Positions 10,922-49,780 of a stretch of 64,000 bases of DNA are shown here, piece by piece; within the stretch, counting starts at the first letter, position 1; every line of letters begins with the position of its first letter. Source of the DNA: an uncultured Dehalococcoidia bacterium (GTDB lineage: Bacteria; Chloroflexota; Dehalococcoidia; Lucifugimonadales; UBA3495); contig OY282494.1 in assembly GCA_958296385.1 (NCBI GenBank), forward strand, positions 343,416 to 407,415. Reading direction: 5' to 3'. Below the pieces are notes generated by a model, which did no database searches, was not told the origin of the DNA, and was given only the letters and a program-made list of their open reading frames with translations. The position numbers were made by a program, and so were the translations under genes.

Positions 10922-11242
10922 TTACATAATGCCAGCTTTTCGTATTAGCCGCACCAGCCGACCGCGCAATGGAACGCGCCGGGGGCAGGACACCGACGGC
11001 AGGTAGAGGGCGATTTCGTTGTCGTCCGGCCACTCATCGTCGAGGCGTTGTAGGGCTTCAGCAACGGAAAGCCCCTGGGCGGCGAACCGCTCCAAGCGTT
11101 CACGAATTGCCTTGCGTTGCGCCTTGCGCCATTCGGCCCGTCCTTCGGCCCATCCCTCGGCATATCCTTTTGCCCGGTCTTCTGCTGCCCAGCGTTTGGC
11201 CATTGCTTCGGCGGCTTTGGTTGCTCCAAGCATCAAAATCAC
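10922..11242 (-). CDS. Coiled-coil protein, 3'-partial tandem copy of the gene at 11281-11880
   Basis: The frame of 106 residues aligns with the C-terminal half of the neighbour: GATKAAEAMAKRWAAEDRAKG, then RLERFAAQGLSVAEALQRLDDEW. The membrane helix and the GRAEGRDE repeat block are missing, replaced by a short Ala/Glu/Gly/Trp stretch. The last 25 residues diverge. The start is GTG at 11242 or ATG at 11233, with no good ribosome site. The 38 bp before it (GGCGGTGCGTAGGAAATCAG) repeat sequence that in the full gene codes for the segment before the coiled coil, showing that a partial tandem duplication created it. Confidence 0.42.
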   Translation of the reverse strand: MILMLGATKAAEAMAKRWAAEDRAKGYAEGWAEGRAEWRKAQRKAIRERLERFAAQGLSVAEALQRLDDEWPDDNEIALYLPSVSCPRRVPLRGRLVRLIRKAGIM

Positions 11243-11280
11243 CCCTTGCTGGCGGTGCGTAGGAAATCAGGCTGACGGGG

Positions 11281-11880
11281 TTAGCCTTGTTCGTTGTTGT
11301 CGGACATCTCGTCGCCGATGCGTTGTAGGGCTTCATCAATGGAAAGCCCTTGGGCGGCGAACCGCTCCATGCGTTCAAGCGTTGCCTTGCGTCCTTCGTC
11401 CCGCCCCTCGGCTCGTCCTTCGTCCCGCCCCTCGGCTCGTCCTTCGTCCCGCCCCTCGGCTCGTCCTTTGGCCTCTCCCCGGGCCTCTCCTTTCGCCAAG
11501 TCTTCTGCTTCCCAGCGTTTGGCCATTGCTTTGGCGGCTTTGGTTGCTCCGAACATTAAATCAACTCCTGCTGGCGGCCCGTAGGAAATCAGGCCGGCCA
11601 GGGCTACTGCGTCGGTAATGCGGCCTGGCGATACTCGTGTGGCTGCTCTGATGGTTTCCAGTGTAATTGGCTTGACCAGTTGGTCAATTGTATCCCAGAT
11701 TACGTAGCCGACGCCGGCGATGCTGAGTACCAGGAACAGGGCGCCGCCGATGTATTTCCAGCGGCCCCAGGCGTACCAGGGGTCGCGGTCATCGTCAGCG
11801 GGCGGGCCGGGCCCGTTTGCCGAGCCCGGCCCGCCGGGGTTATCCCCTTCCGGGTTGTCTTTGCCATCCGGCGTTGACAT
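11281..11880 (-). CDS. Membrane-anchored coiled-coil protein with GRAEGRDE repeats
   Basis: The protein has 199 residues. The N-terminal 35 are Pro/Gly/Asp rich, and one membrane helix follows at about residues 44-64 (YIGGALFLVLSIAGVGYVIW). After a linker comes GATKAAKAMAKRWEAED and a charged repeat region in which the octapeptide GRAEGRDE is present three times, then a helical end (RMERFAAQGLSIDEALQRIGDE). An SD-like GGAGG lies immediately against the ATG, an unusually short spacing. The gene is 30 bases downstream of the betaine permease gene. I do not recognise a family. It is one of three similar membrane/coiled-coil loci in the window. Confidence 0.55.
   Translation of the reverse strand: MSTPDGKDNPEGDNPGGPGSANGPGPPADDDRDPWYAWGRWKYIGGALFLVLSIAGVGYVIWDTIDQLVKPITLETIRAATRVSPGRITDAVALAGLISYGPPAGVDLMFGATKAAKAMAKRWEAEDLAKGEARGEAKGRAEGRDEGRAEGRDEGRAEGRDEGRKATLERMERFAAQGLSIDEALQRIGDEMSDNNEQG
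11390..11461. repeat. Three perfect 24 bp tandem repeats inside a coding region
   Basis: The unit CGTCCTTCGTCCCGCCCCTC plus GGCT occurs at 11390, 11414 and 11438 with no mismatch and keeps the frame, coding for the octapeptide GRAEGRDE. Perfect identity points to recent expansion, so copy number may vary between strains. Confidence 0.9.
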
Positions 11881-14496: not shown

Positions 14497-14692
14497 AATC
14501 AAACCTCGGGGCATACTGCCGCATTTATGTTGGCGCCATGAGGTTGCGGTACGGGCAGTTGAGGTTGAAACCGGCCCATAGCCGGCAACCCGGCATACAA
14601 TGGCGATTGGGCCATTACCGTAGGCCGGCAACCCACTTTTGTCAACCCTGCCCCGGCAGCGGCGCCCCGGCGCCGGCCGGCAGCGTTCCATT

Positions 14693-14746
14693 TTAGGTGG
14701 TTTAGTTTCCCCAATGTCATTCTGAGCGCAGCGAAGAATCTCGACA
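14693..14746. repeat. Left flank repeat of the HigBA/DUF488 island, running into one arm of the dispersed palindrome
   Basis: Starting TTAGGTGGTTTAGTTTCCCC at 14693, about 37 bases match 17243-17280 in the same orientation with three substitutions and one indel. The sequence then continues as a single arm of the dispersed palindromic repeat (TCATTCTGAGCGCAGCG AAG...). The 14497-14692 gap before it holds only short degenerate repeats around GCCGGCAACCC; no gene is seen there. Confidence 0.75.
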
Positions 14747-14752
14747 GCCCGG

Positions 14753-15190
14753 TTAGCCCAGGTGGACGATTTCAACATTGCCCCAATGTTGGTTGAGGTA
14801 TTCGGCAACCAGCCGGCGGTGGCAATGCTCCGGCGTATCCTCGCTGCACAGCAGGCAGGAGTTGGCGATGGTACGCTTGATGCCCATTTTGGCGATGCGC
14901 CGCGCGTCCAGCAGGGCCAGAAACTCCCGCTGGTAGGTATCCCAATCGCGATGCTCTTTGCGGTAGGCGTCCAGCATCTCCCTGGTGGGCGCCAACTCCG
15001 GCAAGTGGACATATTGCATCCGGCAGATTTTGTTGAGGAAATACTCCAGGTCGTCCCTTTTGGCAAACCCGGCCAGCTGCGAAACGTTGTTCAGCCGCAC
15101 GTCCACCAGCCGTTTCGCCCCCGACTCACGCAGCAGCTCAAAGAAATCTGACGCCGATTTTTTGGTGAATCCGATGGTGTGAACCCTCAC
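14753..15190 (-). CDS. DUF488 domain protein (second of pair)
   Basis: The 145-residue protein shows the DUF488 pattern: VHTIGFTKKSASDFFELLRE, KRLVDVRLNN, and the closing motif CLLCSEDTPEHCHRRLVAEYL with the conserved C-x-E-x4-CHR. The start is taken at GTG 15190, where GTGA overlaps the stop of the upstream DUF488 gene by four bases, indicating translational coupling; a start at 15205 would add five residues. DUF488 has no settled biochemical role, but its conserved Cys/His set suggests nucleic acid or nucleotide chemistry. It is the last gene of the toxin/antitoxin/dual-OB operon. Confidence 0.85.
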   Translation of the reverse strand: MRVHTIGFTKKSASDFFELLRESGAKRLVDVRLNNVSQLAGFAKRDDLEYFLNKICRMQYVHLPELAPTREMLDAYRKEHRDWDTYQREFLALLDARRIAKMGIKRTIANSCLLCSEDTPEHCHRRLVAEYLNQHWGNVEIVHLG

Positions 15191-15822
15191 GGCGCATCCT
15201 CCCATTCATCCCGTCCGGCTGCCGGCCTGGCGCCGACGTAAGCGAACTTCTGCGCCTGGCGCCGCAAAACGTCGGCAATCACGTCATCCCGCGAGCGGAA
15301 CAGGTCGCCTTGCTGCGGCAACTTGAAAATGTCCACCAGGCGGCTCATCGCGTCATCGTAGCTTTCCAGTCGCCCATCGGCCAGAATATGCGACACGGCC
15401 ACGCCGCGCTCGGCCAGGCTGCGGGCCACCAGCAGCGTGCGATGACACTCCAGCGGTTCTTTTTCGCTGCACATCAGGGCGATACGCCGTTCATCGGCGT
15501 TGCGCATGATGCGGCGGATGCCATCGTCAAACCCGTCGGTTTCGGCAACCCGGTCATACAGCACGCGCCCGTCAGCATCGTAACAGTCGTGGTCGGCGGG
15601 CCGCCCGCCCAATTCCCCGCCCAGGAACAGATAGCCGATGCCAACATCGCCCAGCAGTCCCGGCAGCGCATCGTGATTGAAATGGGACGCATAACGGCTG
15701 TACGGCGCGGAGCGCACGTCGGCAATTTCAGCCACGCCGTGCCGGATTAACAGTTTGATAAACGCCTCCGGAGCGTGGTTGGAGTGGCCGACGGTGAACA
15801 CGGGATATTGGGTTGGGGACAC
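15187..15822 (-). CDS. DUF488 domain protein (first of pair)
   Basis: The protein has 211 residues. The N-terminus reads VFTVGHSNHAPEAFIKLL, then VAEIADVRSAPYSRYASHFN, LGGELGGRP and the motif ALMCSEKEPLECHRTLLVARSL, a textbook DUF488 series. A C-terminal extension of about 50 residues (DIFKLPQQGDLFRSR onward) is Arg/Asp-rich. It begins at GTG 15822 with GGAG upstream, 15 bases after the stop of the dual-OB-like gene, and overlaps the next DUF488 gene by four bases. It is clearly a paralogue rather than a duplicate of that gene; overall identity looks low. Confidence 0.87.
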   Translation of the reverse strand: MSPTQYPVFTVGHSNHAPEAFIKLLIRHGVAEIADVRSAPYSRYASHFNHDALPGLLGDVGIGYLFLGGELGGRPADHDCYDADGRVLYDRVAETDGFDDGIRRIMRNADERRIALMCSEKEPLECHRTLLVARSLAERGVAVSHILADGRLESYDDAMSRLVDIFKLPQQGDLFRSRDDVIADVLRRQAQKFAYVGARPAAGRDEWEDAP

Positions 15823-15837
15823 TATAACTATTCTCCG

Positions 15838-16866
15838 CTACGGTTTGATGATGGCTGCAATCAGCTTGTAAGCATCGCCCCGAAACGGCTCGCCAAGGCT
15901 TACGGTAAGGAAACATTCCCCGATTTGATATTCTCCATTAGGCTGCTGCAAGTACTTTCGTTCATAACCCGGGTCGGTGACTCGCAACCAGTAGTCCATC
16001 CCGTTGTGCTCAAAACGGCCTTGCACGCTGCGCCTGTAATTGCCAAAGGCCATTCCTGGCTGCGACACGTGCAATTCCAGATTTTCAACCCTGACAAACC
16101 GCAGAGAGTCGGTGAGAGAGCTAGTGTCATCAAGCGGTATCCGGTCGTTTTGTCCATTGACGGTGCTGTGCCCATCAATCCAAAGCGAGGATACGGGGTC
16201 GGTGTATTGCATCAGCTCGGCCTTAGTAACCGAGCGAACCTTTTCCCAGTAAAATTCCGGGTCGATCAACCAGTTTTCCTGCTGATAATCTTTGGGTTTA
16301 GCGTTGAGCAGCGGTACATCGATCACGTCAAGCAAGCAGGGGTCGCTGCCGTTCTCATACTGCCGCTCCCATTCCGACACTTCTTCGGTTTCCCGGTCGC
16401 TCACCGGACGAATCCAGCCTCCGATTTCCCCATTAGCCAGAACTTCTTTTCCAGCGATACAACGGCCGCTCAGTTTGCGAGAATTGGCCAGGCACAGAAT
16501 GCTCTTGACAGTTGCAGTAGTCATAATCACGTCTGCTCCGGAAATTTGGCGACAGGAACTAATTCTACGCGCTTCGGATGTCGCATTTTCGGTCAGTCGG
16601 CGGTATTCAGCCTCGATGCCGAGCCAGAAGCTAGCCTCCAGGTCAAACTCCCGCTCCAGGATAGCGGCCAGTTTAGCGTCGAGAGGAGCGCTGCCGGCCA
16701 AGACACCCTCAATAAGTTCCATGGCCAGCGAATGTCGCCGCGCGAATTCCTCCGGGGTAAAATCATTGACATTCAGATAGTCCCTGAGCAGCCACCCCGG
16801 CGGAACGGCATAGTCGGGGTGGTAGGGGTGGTAAGGGTAAGTTCGGTTGTCTTGGAACGTTGCCAT
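15838..16866 (-). CDS. HigA-like antitoxin domain fused to a dual-OB-like domain
   Basis: The protein has 342 residues from the ATG at 16866, with AAGGAG upstream. Residues about 25-95 match HigA/XRE antitoxins: PPGWLLRDYLNVNDFTPEEF, ARRHSLAMELIEGVL and a DLEASFWLGIEAEYRR end. Residues about 115-342 resemble stand-alone dual-OB (DuOB) proteins: SILCLANSRKLSGRCIAGKE, GGWIRPVSDRETEEVS and LLDVIDVPLL. An ATG at residue 115 (16524) has GGAG about nine bases upstream, so the second half could also be made alone. The gene follows the HigB-like toxin by 14 bases and precedes the DUF488 pair by 15. The HigA assignment is firm; the dual-OB call is moderate. Confidence 0.75.
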   Translation of the reverse strand: MATFQDNRTYPYHPYHPDYAVPPGWLLRDYLNVNDFTPEEFARRHSLAMELIEGVLAGSAPLDAKLAAILEREFDLEASFWLGIEAEYRRLTENATSEARRISSCRQISGADVIMTTATVKSILCLANSRKLSGRCIAGKEVLANGEIGGWIRPVSDRETEEVSEWERQYENGSDPCLLDVIDVPLLNAKPKDYQQENWLIDPEFYWEKVRSVTKAELMQYTDPVSSLWIDGHSTVNGQNDRIPLDDTSSLTDSLRFVRVENLELHVSQPGMAFGNYRRSVQGRFEHNGMDYWLRVTDPGYERKYLQQPNGEYQIGECFLTVSLGEPFRGDAYKLIAAIIKP

Positions 16867-16880
16867 TTCGCAGGTCTCCT

Positions 16881-17216
16881 TCAATGATAGTCTATCATTT
16901 CGGTGATGACAATTGCAGTCACCAAGTCGATAGCAATGCCCCCGTCCGCGCGGCGCGGAATTGGGTCGTGGTCCGGAGCAAATACCAGCCGGTTTTTTCG
17001 GTCAATATCAACGGCGTACTGCTCATCGCGATTGCCGGTCAGTTGATGTCGTCGGAATGGCAGCGTAGTCGGAACTTGCGCTAGCGTTGCGAACCTACGT
17101 AATGCGTTCAGCCTGGCCAGTATTGACTGTGCGCGTCGCTTGCCGTATGCCCGTGTAAGGTCGGATTCGCTGTGAAACAGCCTGTCCAACTGGTGGGTTT
17201 CAAAGCTTACTTCCAT
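16881..17216 (-). CDS. HigB/RelE-like toxin of a type II toxin-antitoxin pair
   Basis: The 111 residues fit the RelE/HigB size. Visible features are the N-terminal MEVSFETHQLDRLF, an Arg/Lys-rich middle (AYGKRRAQSILARLNALRRF), then RRHQLTGNRDEQYAVDIDRKNRLVFAPDHDP, the typical strand pair carrying basic residues of the mRNA-interferase fold, and a last strand AIVITEMIDYH. Relatives cut mRNA on the ribosome and are neutralised by the HigA partner encoded just downstream, the gene order of higBA loci. It is the first gene of the operon ending at 14753. No strong ribosome site is seen before the ATG. Confidence 0.82.
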   Translation of the reverse strand: MEVSFETHQLDRLFHSESDLTRAYGKRRAQSILARLNALRRFATLAQVPTTLPFRRHQLTGNRDEQYAVDIDRKNRLVFAPDHDPIPRRADGGIAIDLVTAIVITEMIDYH

Positions 17217-17242
17217 TTGCCGTCACTATTCGCCGGACGCCG

Positions 17243-17280
17243 TTAGGCGGTTTAGTTTCCCCCAATGCCATTCTAAGCGC
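17243..17280. repeat. Right flank repeat of the HigBA/DUF488 island
   Basis: TTAGGCGGTTTAGTTTCCCC begins a 38-base stretch matching 14693-14729 in direct orientation. The island between the two copies is about 2.5 kb. No terminal inverted repeats or integrase genes accompany it. Confidence 0.75.
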
Positions 17281-17285
17281 CCTTT

Positions 17286-17400
17286 CCCCCAATGTCATTC
17301 TGAGTGCAGCGCAGAATCTCGACAGCGTAGCAACGGCGTTGCCCTCAAAGTGTATCCTACGTCATCGAGATTCTTCGCTGAGCTCAGAATGACATTAGAG
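17286..17400. repeat. Dispersed palindromic repeat (REP-like), copy A
   Basis: The left arm (AATGTCATTCTGAGTGCAGC onward, 17291-17323) and the right arm (GTCATCGAGATTCTTCGCTG onward, 17361-17396) form an inverted repeat around a 37-base centre containing AGCGTAGCAACGGCGTT. The same element occurs at 35261-35380, 37284-37385 and 49661-49780, with half copies at 14709 and 29944. The rest of the 17217-17555 gap holds only the flank repeat and a short tyrA leader. Confidence 0.88.
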
Positions 17401-17555
17401 AGGAGGACTGATTAAACCGCCTGAAACGAAACGCTGCCGCGCCGGCCGGCGGTTTTACCCCTCGTTGCGTATGTTGTACACTAGGCGCAGTTCCGGCCAT
17501 TCCCGGCGCGTTCAGCAGTGGATGGGCTAAGTCTGTCAATGAGGCGAATTTCCCT

Positions 17556-20007: not shown

Positions 20008-20514
20008 TTGACCCGGGCCGGGCTGGCATATCTGCTGGCAACGATTTTCGTCGCATCCGGCGCCCTGGGGTCAACGGTTGCGGTGTACGTAATCTGGGAG
20101 CGCGAGGCGCCGGAAACGCTGTCCGCCGCCATCGTAAATACGGCAGCGGTGCTTGCGGCAGCCGCATTCGCAGGAGTATTTGATATGTTCTTCACCATGC
20201 AACAAAACCGCCAGCACTCCGAGGAACGGAGGGAGTGGCTGGAAACGGTGAAAAGATGGCGGGAGGAGGATGTAGCCCGTGCCGAACAGCGCCAGCAAGA
20301 GGAAGCGGCCCGCATCGAGCAGCGCCAGCAAGAGGAAGCAGCCCGTGCTGAGCAACACCGGCAAGAGGAAGCGGCCCGCTACGAACAGCGCCGGCAAGAT
20401 GAGAACGCTTTTATGGAGCGTATGCTGGACAACATGATGACCCGTTTCGTCGAATCTCTGGAACGCATCGAGCAGCGCAATAACGGCAACGGCAATGGTG
20501 CCACAAAGGACTAA
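20008..20514 (+). CDS. Membrane-anchored coiled-coil protein with EQRQQEEAAR repeats
   Basis: The protein has 168 residues. Two N-terminal hydrophobic helices (about residues 6-28 and 40-60) are followed by a long charged helix in which the ten-residue unit EQRQQEEAAR is repeated about four times (residues 92-132). The C-terminus reads MLDNMMTRFVESLERIEQ and ends in an Asn/Gly run. It lies between aroA and gmk. The start at TTG 20008 lacks a clear ribosome site. The architecture is like the genes at 627-1136 and 11281-11880. No family recognised. Confidence 0.5.
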   Translation: MTRAGLAYLLATIFVASGALGSTVAVYVIWEREAPETLSAAIVNTAAVLAAAAFAGVFDMFFTMQQNRQHSEERREWLETVKRWREEDVARAEQRQQEEAARIEQRQQEEAARAEQHRQEEAARYEQRRQDENAFMERMLDNMMTRFVESLERIEQRNNGNGNGATKD

Positions 20515-20608
20515 CTGCTCCAAAAAGCGCGCGGCCCGCGTTGCTGTCCGACGCTGAACCGGCGCCGTCGTAAATACGGCGGCAGCCGCATTCGCAGGAG
20601 TATTTGAT

Positions 20609-20896
20609 ATGTTCTTTACCATGCAACAAAGCCGCCAGTACGCCGAAGAACGGAGGGAGCGCGCCGAGGAACGCCGGCAGTGGATGGAAAGGATGGAAAA
20701 ATTGCTGTCAGAGACCGTAGCCCGCGCCGAGCAGCGCCAGCAAGAGGAAGCAGCCCGCGCCGAGCAGCGCCGGCAAGAGGAGAACGCTTTTATGGAGCGT
20801 ATGTTTGACGCTATGATGGTCCGTCTCGTCGAATCTCTGGAACGCATCGAGCGGCGCAGCAACGGCAATGGCAACGGCACCACTAATGACGCCTGA
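20609..20896 (+). CDS. Coiled-coil protein, 3'-partial tandem copy of the gene at 20008-20514
   Basis: The 95 residues start at MFFTMQQSRQYAEERRE, matching the full gene from its residue 60 onward, and carry the same EQRQQEEAAR units (two instead of about four) and the same VESLERIE end with an Asn/Gly tail. The 28 bases before the ATG (GCCGCATTCGCAGGAGTATT onward) are identical in both copies and include AGGAG, which inside the full gene is coding but here can serve as a ribosome site. The end overlaps the start of gmk. Confidence 0.5.
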   Translation: MFFTMQQSRQYAEERRERAEERRQWMERMEKLLSETVARAEQRQQEEAARAEQRRQEENAFMERMFDAMMVRLVESLERIERRSNGNGNGTTNDA

Positions 20897-35260: not shown

Positions 35261-35380
35261 TCCCCCAATGTCATTCTGAGCGCAGCGAAGAATCTCGATA
35301 GCGTAGCAGCGGATGTTGTCCCCAAAGCCTGCGCTACCCCGTCGAGATTCTTCGCTGCGCTCAGAATGACATTAGGGGAA
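35261..35380. repeat. Dispersed palindromic repeat (REP-like), copy B
   Basis: Left arm 35261-35300 (CCCAATGTCATTCTGAGCGC onward) and right arm 35341-35379 are nearly perfect inverted complements around a 40-base centre (AGCGTAGCAGCGG). It lies in the 414-base gap between the divergent metG and ilvD genes. Bases 35381-35575 hold no gene; they should contain the ilvD promoter, but no clear hexamers are seen. Confidence 0.9.
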
Positions 35381-49660: not shown

Positions 49661-49780
49661 AACCCCAATGTCATTCTGAGCGCAGCGAAGAATCTCGATG
49701 ACGTAGCAACGGCGTTTCCCCCAAAGCGTGCGTTACCCCGTCGAGATTCTTCGCTGCGCTCAGAATGACATTGGGGGTAG
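49661..49780. repeat. Dispersed palindromic repeat (REP-like), copy D
   Basis: Left arm 49662-49700 (CCCAATGTCATTCTGAGCGC onward) and right arm 49740-49778 are almost perfect inverted complements. The centre has GACGTAGCAACGGCGTTTCC. It fills much of the 383-base gap between the enoyl-CoA hydratase and nfeD genes. Bases 49780-49895 look like the nfeD leader; an earlier start for that gene at 49860 is possible. Confidence 0.9.

Follow-up and report, generated by a model that had tools for sequence, protein, structure and literature searches.

What brings a HigB-type toxin, a predicted nucleic-acid-binding protein and two DUF488 proteins together in one small operon, and does the operon serve defence, maintenance or only its own persistence? 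The question is raised by a cassette in a stretch of 64,000 nucleotides (hereafter the window) of an uncultured Dehalococcoidia bacterium, which is part of a single-contig genome of 3.30 Mb. On the minus strand the cassette encodes, in this order, HigB, a fusion of HigA with a dual OB-fold (oligonucleotide/oligosaccharide-binding) protein, here HigA-DuOB, DUF488 protein 1 and DUF488 protein 2. Our reading, held tentatively and at somewhat less than an even chance, is that of a mobile variant of the candidate defence system PDC-M45 that is guarded by the HigB toxin and joins the antitoxin to the predicted nucleic-acid sensor within a single polypeptide.

The operon and its catalogued core

A PADLOC search assigns HigA-DuOB, DUF488 protein 1 and DUF488 protein 2 to PDC-M45A, PDC-M45B and PDC-M45C in that order (Table 1). 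The same three components are present in the same order with strong matches, DuOB being followed by the two DUF488 genes, and judged by these profiles the DuOB-DUF488-DUF488 core (the trio) is the already catalogued candidate defence system PDC-M45. A preliminary description of the locus, made from its open reading frames, had suggested that the module could be undescribed. This has to be withdrawn for the core, since PADLOC already lists PDC-M45 A, B and C, and the parts have Pfam models of their own. Compared with PDC-M45 the locus adds HigB-HigA upstream, the HigA-DuOB fusion and a carrier bounded by a miniature inverted-repeat transposable element (MITE). It is the HigBA part and the fused, MITE-carried form that are new, whereas the trio itself is already catalogued.

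The individual parts proposed in that description stand up well. Both DUF488 proteins match PF04343 in hidden Markov model searches, and each has a well-kept motif: AL.C.EKEPL.CHR in 56 homologues of protein 1 and CLLCSE..p..CHRRL in 58 homologues of protein 2. Burroughs and Aravind (2023), writing on the rhodanese-phosphatase superfamily, reportedly predicted DNA-end processing for DUF488 relatives. The dual-OB half matches PF22557 (DuOB) along the whole profile (E = 5e-70), and the structure model shows two OB folds. HigA and DuOB lie in one open frame. The model of the fusion protein has a mean pLDDT (predicted local distance difference test) of 81.8, with the HigA part less surely modelled. 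Residues 18-108 match antidote structures of the HigA type, with Z-scores reaching 7.9 (3cec), residues 112-213 resemble the OB folds of telomere-binding (POT1), RPA, SSB and HIN proteins, and residues 219-342 align with part of BrxL. Against TIGR02607 the HigA half reaches E = 1.4e-5 and 24.8 bits, which is under the curated cut-off of 47.7. The middling Z-scores of this model support a helix-turn-helix (HTH) antitoxin domain and two OB folds, and no more.

The HigB sequence gives no match in Pfam. Its AlphaFold2 model, however, is of high confidence (pLDDT 93.8) and is nearest in the Protein Data Bank (PDB) to Proteus vulgaris HigB, followed by other RelE-superfamily toxins, and the family profile matches HigB chains among the PDB sequences. 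Model and profile together agree with the HigB-like toxin proposed earlier, and identify the RelE-superfamily toxin that a HigBA type II toxin-antitoxin module needs. A terminal His is among the invariant positions of the family. The gene is the sole homologue in its own genome and the family is present in 9 of 400 genomes of the phylum; chance abundance of the family is thereby ruled out.

The compact four-gene layout also proved correct. The HigB stop and the HigA start are 14 nt apart, another 15 nt separate HigA-DuOB from DUF488 protein 1, and the DUF488 genes overlap each other in a GTGA if the GTG at 15190 is taken as start, or by 19 nt with the ATG at 15205. The toxin comes first within one operon, as HigBA type II modules require. 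A scan for promoters and terminators gave counts near chance.

Table 1. Features of the cassette and its ends, in window coordinates
Feature	Position	Strand	Basis or remark
Left 9-bp target-site duplication copy, GCGCCGGCC	14670-14678		Perfect match to 17439-17447, just outside the terminal inverted repeats
Left MITE remnant	14679-14748	+	27-bp terminal inverted repeat 14679-14705 and inner arm with CATTCTGAGCGCAGCGAAGAATCT; compared with complete copies
DUF488 protein 2 (PDC-M45C), 150 aa	14753-15205	-	PF04343 2e-25; PDC-M45C 1.4e-71
DUF488 protein 1 (PDC-M45B), 211 aa	15187-15822	-	PF04343 6e-20; PDC-M45B 3.3e-74
HigA-DuOB fusion protein, 342 aa	15838-16866	-	Single open frame; HigA-type part and two OB folds
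DuOB half (PDC-M45A)	15838-16524	-	PF22557 4.9e-70; PDC-M45A 1.2e-92; alignment
HigA half, HTH antitoxin domain	16540-16866	-	TIGR02607 1.4e-5 (under cut-off); 3cec Z 7.9
HigB-like toxin, 111 aa	16881-17216	-	AlphaFold2 model closest to P. vulgaris HigB; profile matches
Right MITE copy	17241-17438	+	Lacks only the outer part of its own left terminal inverted repeat; layout as in complete copies L120 and L122
Right 9-bp target-site duplication copy, GCGCCGGCC	17439-17447		Just outside the right terminal inverted repeat

Ends of the cassette and its mobility

The cassette stands between a prephenate dehydrogenase gene on one side and an ABC-transporter ATPase gene on the other. Direct repeats at 14693 and 17243 had been taken as its ends. 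Both are present, the first within the left MITE remnant and the second within the right MITE copy, but they are arms of a dispersed MITE: the motif is the inner arm of an element of mostly about 180-230 bp with the terminal inverted repeat (TIR) GGYAGCGTTCCRTTTYAGGTGGTTTRG. As the genome contains 237 copies of the core motif, the pair says little alone, and this copy number rules the repeats out as cassette ends. The real ends are TIRs and a 9-bp target-site duplication. Two facing 27-bp TIRs (14679-14705 and 17412-17438) lie 2.76 kb apart, enclosing 14679-17438; they are common to other elements of the genome, in which 87 copies of the TIR were found, and the flanking duplication agrees at 9 of 9 bases. 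Of 20 true TIR pairs (19 from the window's genome and one from the relative G006), 10 agree at 8 or 9 flanking bases, compared with a single one among 380 mismatched pairings. A 1.07-kb element that shares these ends contains a reading frame for a Mutator-like transposase (weak scores). Members of the MITE family, with ends common to the Mutator-like insertion sequence, were also seen elsewhere in the genome, for example at loci L117, L118, L120, L122 and L131 and in the window at 35272-35368 and 49672-49767.

Empty sites in close relatives had been named as a check on mobility, and two were found: in G006 and G008 the prephenate dehydrogenase and ABC ATPase genes adjoin without the cassette. 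The genus usually carries the trio at a different site, flanked by a phosphotriesterase-like gene (named by eye) and by a conserved gene without known function. Between the window and G006 the synonymous divergence (dS) of the DUF488 genes is 0.08-0.15, against 0.74 for the prephenate dehydrogenase gene. The TIRs with their target-site duplication, the cassette-free site in two relatives and the low DUF488 dS relative to a core gene lead to the conclusion that, as far as sequence comparison goes, the cassette is a mobile unit.

How it arrived is a separate matter. Possibly, though with less than even probability, the cassette entered a resident MITE by recombination, for instance in circular form, in which case the 9-bp duplication would be that of the older MITE. 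Such a route agrees with the direct orientation of the two MITE copies and their truncated inner sides, and with a different TIR-bounded element of 586 bp that G006 has at this position, between its prephenate dehydrogenase and ABC ATPase genes. The target-site duplications differ, however (GCGCCGGCC in the window, CGACTACCC in G006), which suggests that the two insertions were separate. The arrangement is otherwise similar to that of TIMEs (Tn3-derived inverted-repeat miniature elements) and mosaic non-autonomous transposons, which are likewise non-autonomous and enclose passenger genes between the ends of a parent transposon; the parent of TIMEs belongs to the Tn3 family, whereas in the present case it is an insertion sequence of Mutator-like type that has 9-bp duplications (PMC4133298).

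The trio across genomes and the origin of the fusion

DuOB is found in 14 of 60 relatives (own genome counted) and in 45 of the 400 phylum genomes; it also occurs at 47 loci spread over several phyla and is carried by 23 plasmids. The trio stands between HmaB and HmaC in two genomes (L048 and L039), one of Nitrospira and one of Latescibacterota. These are the only relatives with Hma genes beside it; in the window no match to Hma genes adjoins the trio, the flanks encoding prephenate dehydrogenase, EPSP synthase, an ABC ATPase and a permease. Other trio loci adjoin type I restriction-modification (RM) specificity genes or a Schlafen/AlbA_2 protein. On the Agrobacterium plasmid pAt1D1108a (L145) the trio lies near genes of CBASS (cyclic oligonucleotide-based antiphage signalling system) and directly follows genes for an XRE regulator and a peptidase, the latter called capP by PADLOC; we considered that this CapP-like peptidase might regulate the neighbouring CBASS instead of the trio. 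Acinetobacter and Citrobacter plasmids have DUF4326 as the second enzyme. In two Chloroflexota genomes (L171/G203 and L173/G429) the C-terminus of DuOB is fused to a RecQ-type helicase matching PADLOC DpdF, with the DUF488 pair adjoining. By eye, the DuOB frame runs into a beta-propeller-like repeat at L163 and into a glyoxalase-like domain at L172. At the sensitivity used, no DuOB relatives were found in viral contigs and phage records, and a viral origin was set aside on this ground.

Taken together, these contexts favour a nucleic-acid-directed defence role without proving it. It might be argued instead that the trio is a module for DNA repair or nucleic-acid maintenance, with HigBA as its stress regulator. 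We regard this as improbable: whereas the fusion to a RecQ-type helicase, the likeness of the OB folds to RPA, POT1 and SSB and the metabolic surroundings of some loci (the window included) would all suit a repair module, its patchy distribution (the 45 of 400 phylum genomes), its spread over phyla and plasmids, its position within Hma and next to genes of CBASS or RM systems and the low dS brought about by transfer would not.

The preliminary description had further proposed a survey for conserved clusters of HigB, HigA, DuOB and DUF488 genes. The trio does recur in many phyla; the complete four-gene unit, however, is seen in a single genus and the fusion in only two genomes, so that the survey of DuOB loci rules out general conservation of the unit beyond the genus. 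Within the genus, strong homologues of the window HigB occur in 7 of 14 genomes, in all seven directly upstream of DUF488-locus genes, and the protease of HigA is lost or broken at these loci. In the rest of the phylum sample this HigB is present in 8 of 399 genomes, and at 7 of the 8 the next frame is HigA with a C-terminal M78-type peptidase (by eye); at a Vicinamibacterales copy (L047) the succession of HigB and HigA-M78 is confirmed by Pfam. Judging from these neighbourhoods, the partner of this HigB family is normally HigA fused to an M78/ImmA protease. The operon shares the toxin-first order, the HigB fold and, by its structure model, a HigA-type HTH with HigBA type II modules, and with HigB plus HigA-M78/ImmA in particular. 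It differs in that no M78 peptidase follows the HigA domain: DuOB alone takes that place, with two DUF488 enzymes further down the operon.

In five genomes HigA and DuOB adjoin, overlap or are fused. G012, G008 and G005 encode HigA separately, ahead of DuOB; a possible TTG start of DuOB overlaps the HigA stop codon in G008, and G005 has a TTG start a few bases beyond the HigA stop. The two are fused in G002 and in the window genome. In G012 HigA is separated from DuOB by a leftover 3'-terminal piece of the upstream gene (by eye), and HigBA therefore looks like an insertion. Two further loci are reduced: G001 has HigB, HigA and the second DUF488 only, and in G006 (L094) HigA has a truncated M78 part and DuOB is lost. 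Repeat elements of the window's MITE family are inserted within the HigB gene of this last locus. On these comparisons the fused form seems to have arisen by loss of the M78 domain and joining to DuOB. It may have done so twice, because the linkers of the two fusions differ (G002 has no ATG just ahead of DuOB) and the window DuOB is closer to that of another genus (68%) than to those of its own (about 53%).

Elsewhere in the window, the open reading frames at 10922-11880 and 20008-20896 contain coiled-coil-like repeats with a high share of Glu, Arg and Ala (EGRDEGRAEG..., RAEQRQQEEAAR...) and are apparently repeat-expanded paralogues.

How the module might work

HigB toxins cut mRNA while it is translated, and HigA autoregulates its own operon. 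In the window HigA-DuOB would, in the resting state, hold HigB inactive, bind the promoter and repress the operon as known HigA proteins do. The two OB folds would bind single-stranded or end-exposed DNA, and DuOB engaged with DNA would recruit the two DUF488 enzymes, both containing Cys, which would process or modify the ends of invading DNA. If DuOB were captured by foreign or damaged DNA, or if HigA-DuOB were depleted or blocked by a phage, the operon would be derepressed and HigB freed; the toxin would then cut ribosome-bound mRNA, with abortive infection as the fallback. Its presence would also make loss of the module costly.

The HigBAC module of Escherichia coli is triggered by a phage protein (PMC11980606), and the M78-type proteases CapP and PprI respond to single-stranded DNA and cut their repressors (PMC13373217, PMC10904395). 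Since M78 proteases respond in this way, the ancestral HigA-M78 may, by analogy, have been a DNA-damage-responsive antitoxin, and in the window's lineage the dual-OB protein of the defence module may have taken the protease's place. Loss of the HigA protease and joining to DuOB would then amount to one DNA-responsive part being swapped for another. CapH-CapP, an XRE repressor with an M78 peptidase activated by single-stranded DNA (PMC13373217), likewise places a repressor and a DNA-responsive part upstream of a defence operon; the operon, in contrast, has a toxin and no peptidase, and the DNA-responsive part would be the module's own OB-fold protein. The predicted dual-OB fold resembles DNA-binding OB proteins, including the HIN domains of animal DNA sensors. 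In the most direct form of coupling, HigA-DuOB would be a single-protein DNA-sensing antitoxin, with DNA captured during infection itself activating HigB at the same time as it comes under attack by the DUF488 enzymes; we think this unlikely, though less so than the repair module. The broader suggestion of the preliminary description, that toxin control is coupled to nucleic-acid sensing, is a plausible inference.

The guarded PDC-M45 variant proposed at the outset draws on the PDC-M45 matches, the HigB, HigA and OB folds, the position of all seven strong HigB homologues of the genus just upstream of DUF488 genes and the closeness or fusion of HigA and DuOB in five genomes, and gains further support from the Hma, RM and CBASS contexts, the RecQ/DpdF-like fusion, the C...CHR motif in both DUF488 proteins, the response of M78 proteases to single-stranded DNA, the phage triggering of HigBAC and the signs of mobility. 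Several observations weigh against it. PDC-M45 is a candidate system only, the Z-scores of the OB folds are middling, the link of HigBA with the trio is confined to one genus, fusions make up 2 of about 78 DuOB loci inspected, and parts of the locus are broken or lost in two relatives (G005 and G006). In addition, an in-frame ATG inside the fusion (16524-16522), preceded by GGAG, stands where stand-alone DuOB genes start, and DuOB may be made from it separately.

These last points lead to a competing explanation, which we consider doubtful but still to be reckoned with: an ordinary addiction or promoter HigBA inserted upstream of PDC-M45, and toxin and defence enzymes are uncoupled. A deletion would have taken the M78 domain and stop codon of HigA, leaving DuOB with a harmless N-terminal extension or with translation from the internal ATG. 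HigBA is indeed absent from most DuOB loci, in G012 it is inserted into the 3' end of the upstream gene, and the M78 part has been lost in several relatives in different ways. An incidental fusion accounts less well for two fusions with different linkers, one of them (G002) without an ATG just ahead of DuOB, for the overlap or close coupling of HigA and DuOB in two more genomes, and for HigBA being kept at the trio locus in all seven toxin-carrying genomes. An incidental fusion in which the ATG at 16524 yields DuOB as well is nearly as likely as the mechanism set out above.

The locus connects an uncharacterised candidate defence module, in a way that experiments can test, with a toxin whose action is well known. 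Within one genus the passage from separate neighbours to a fused antitoxin-sensor can be followed in stages, and a candidate defence module is seen moving as a small MITE-bounded unit.

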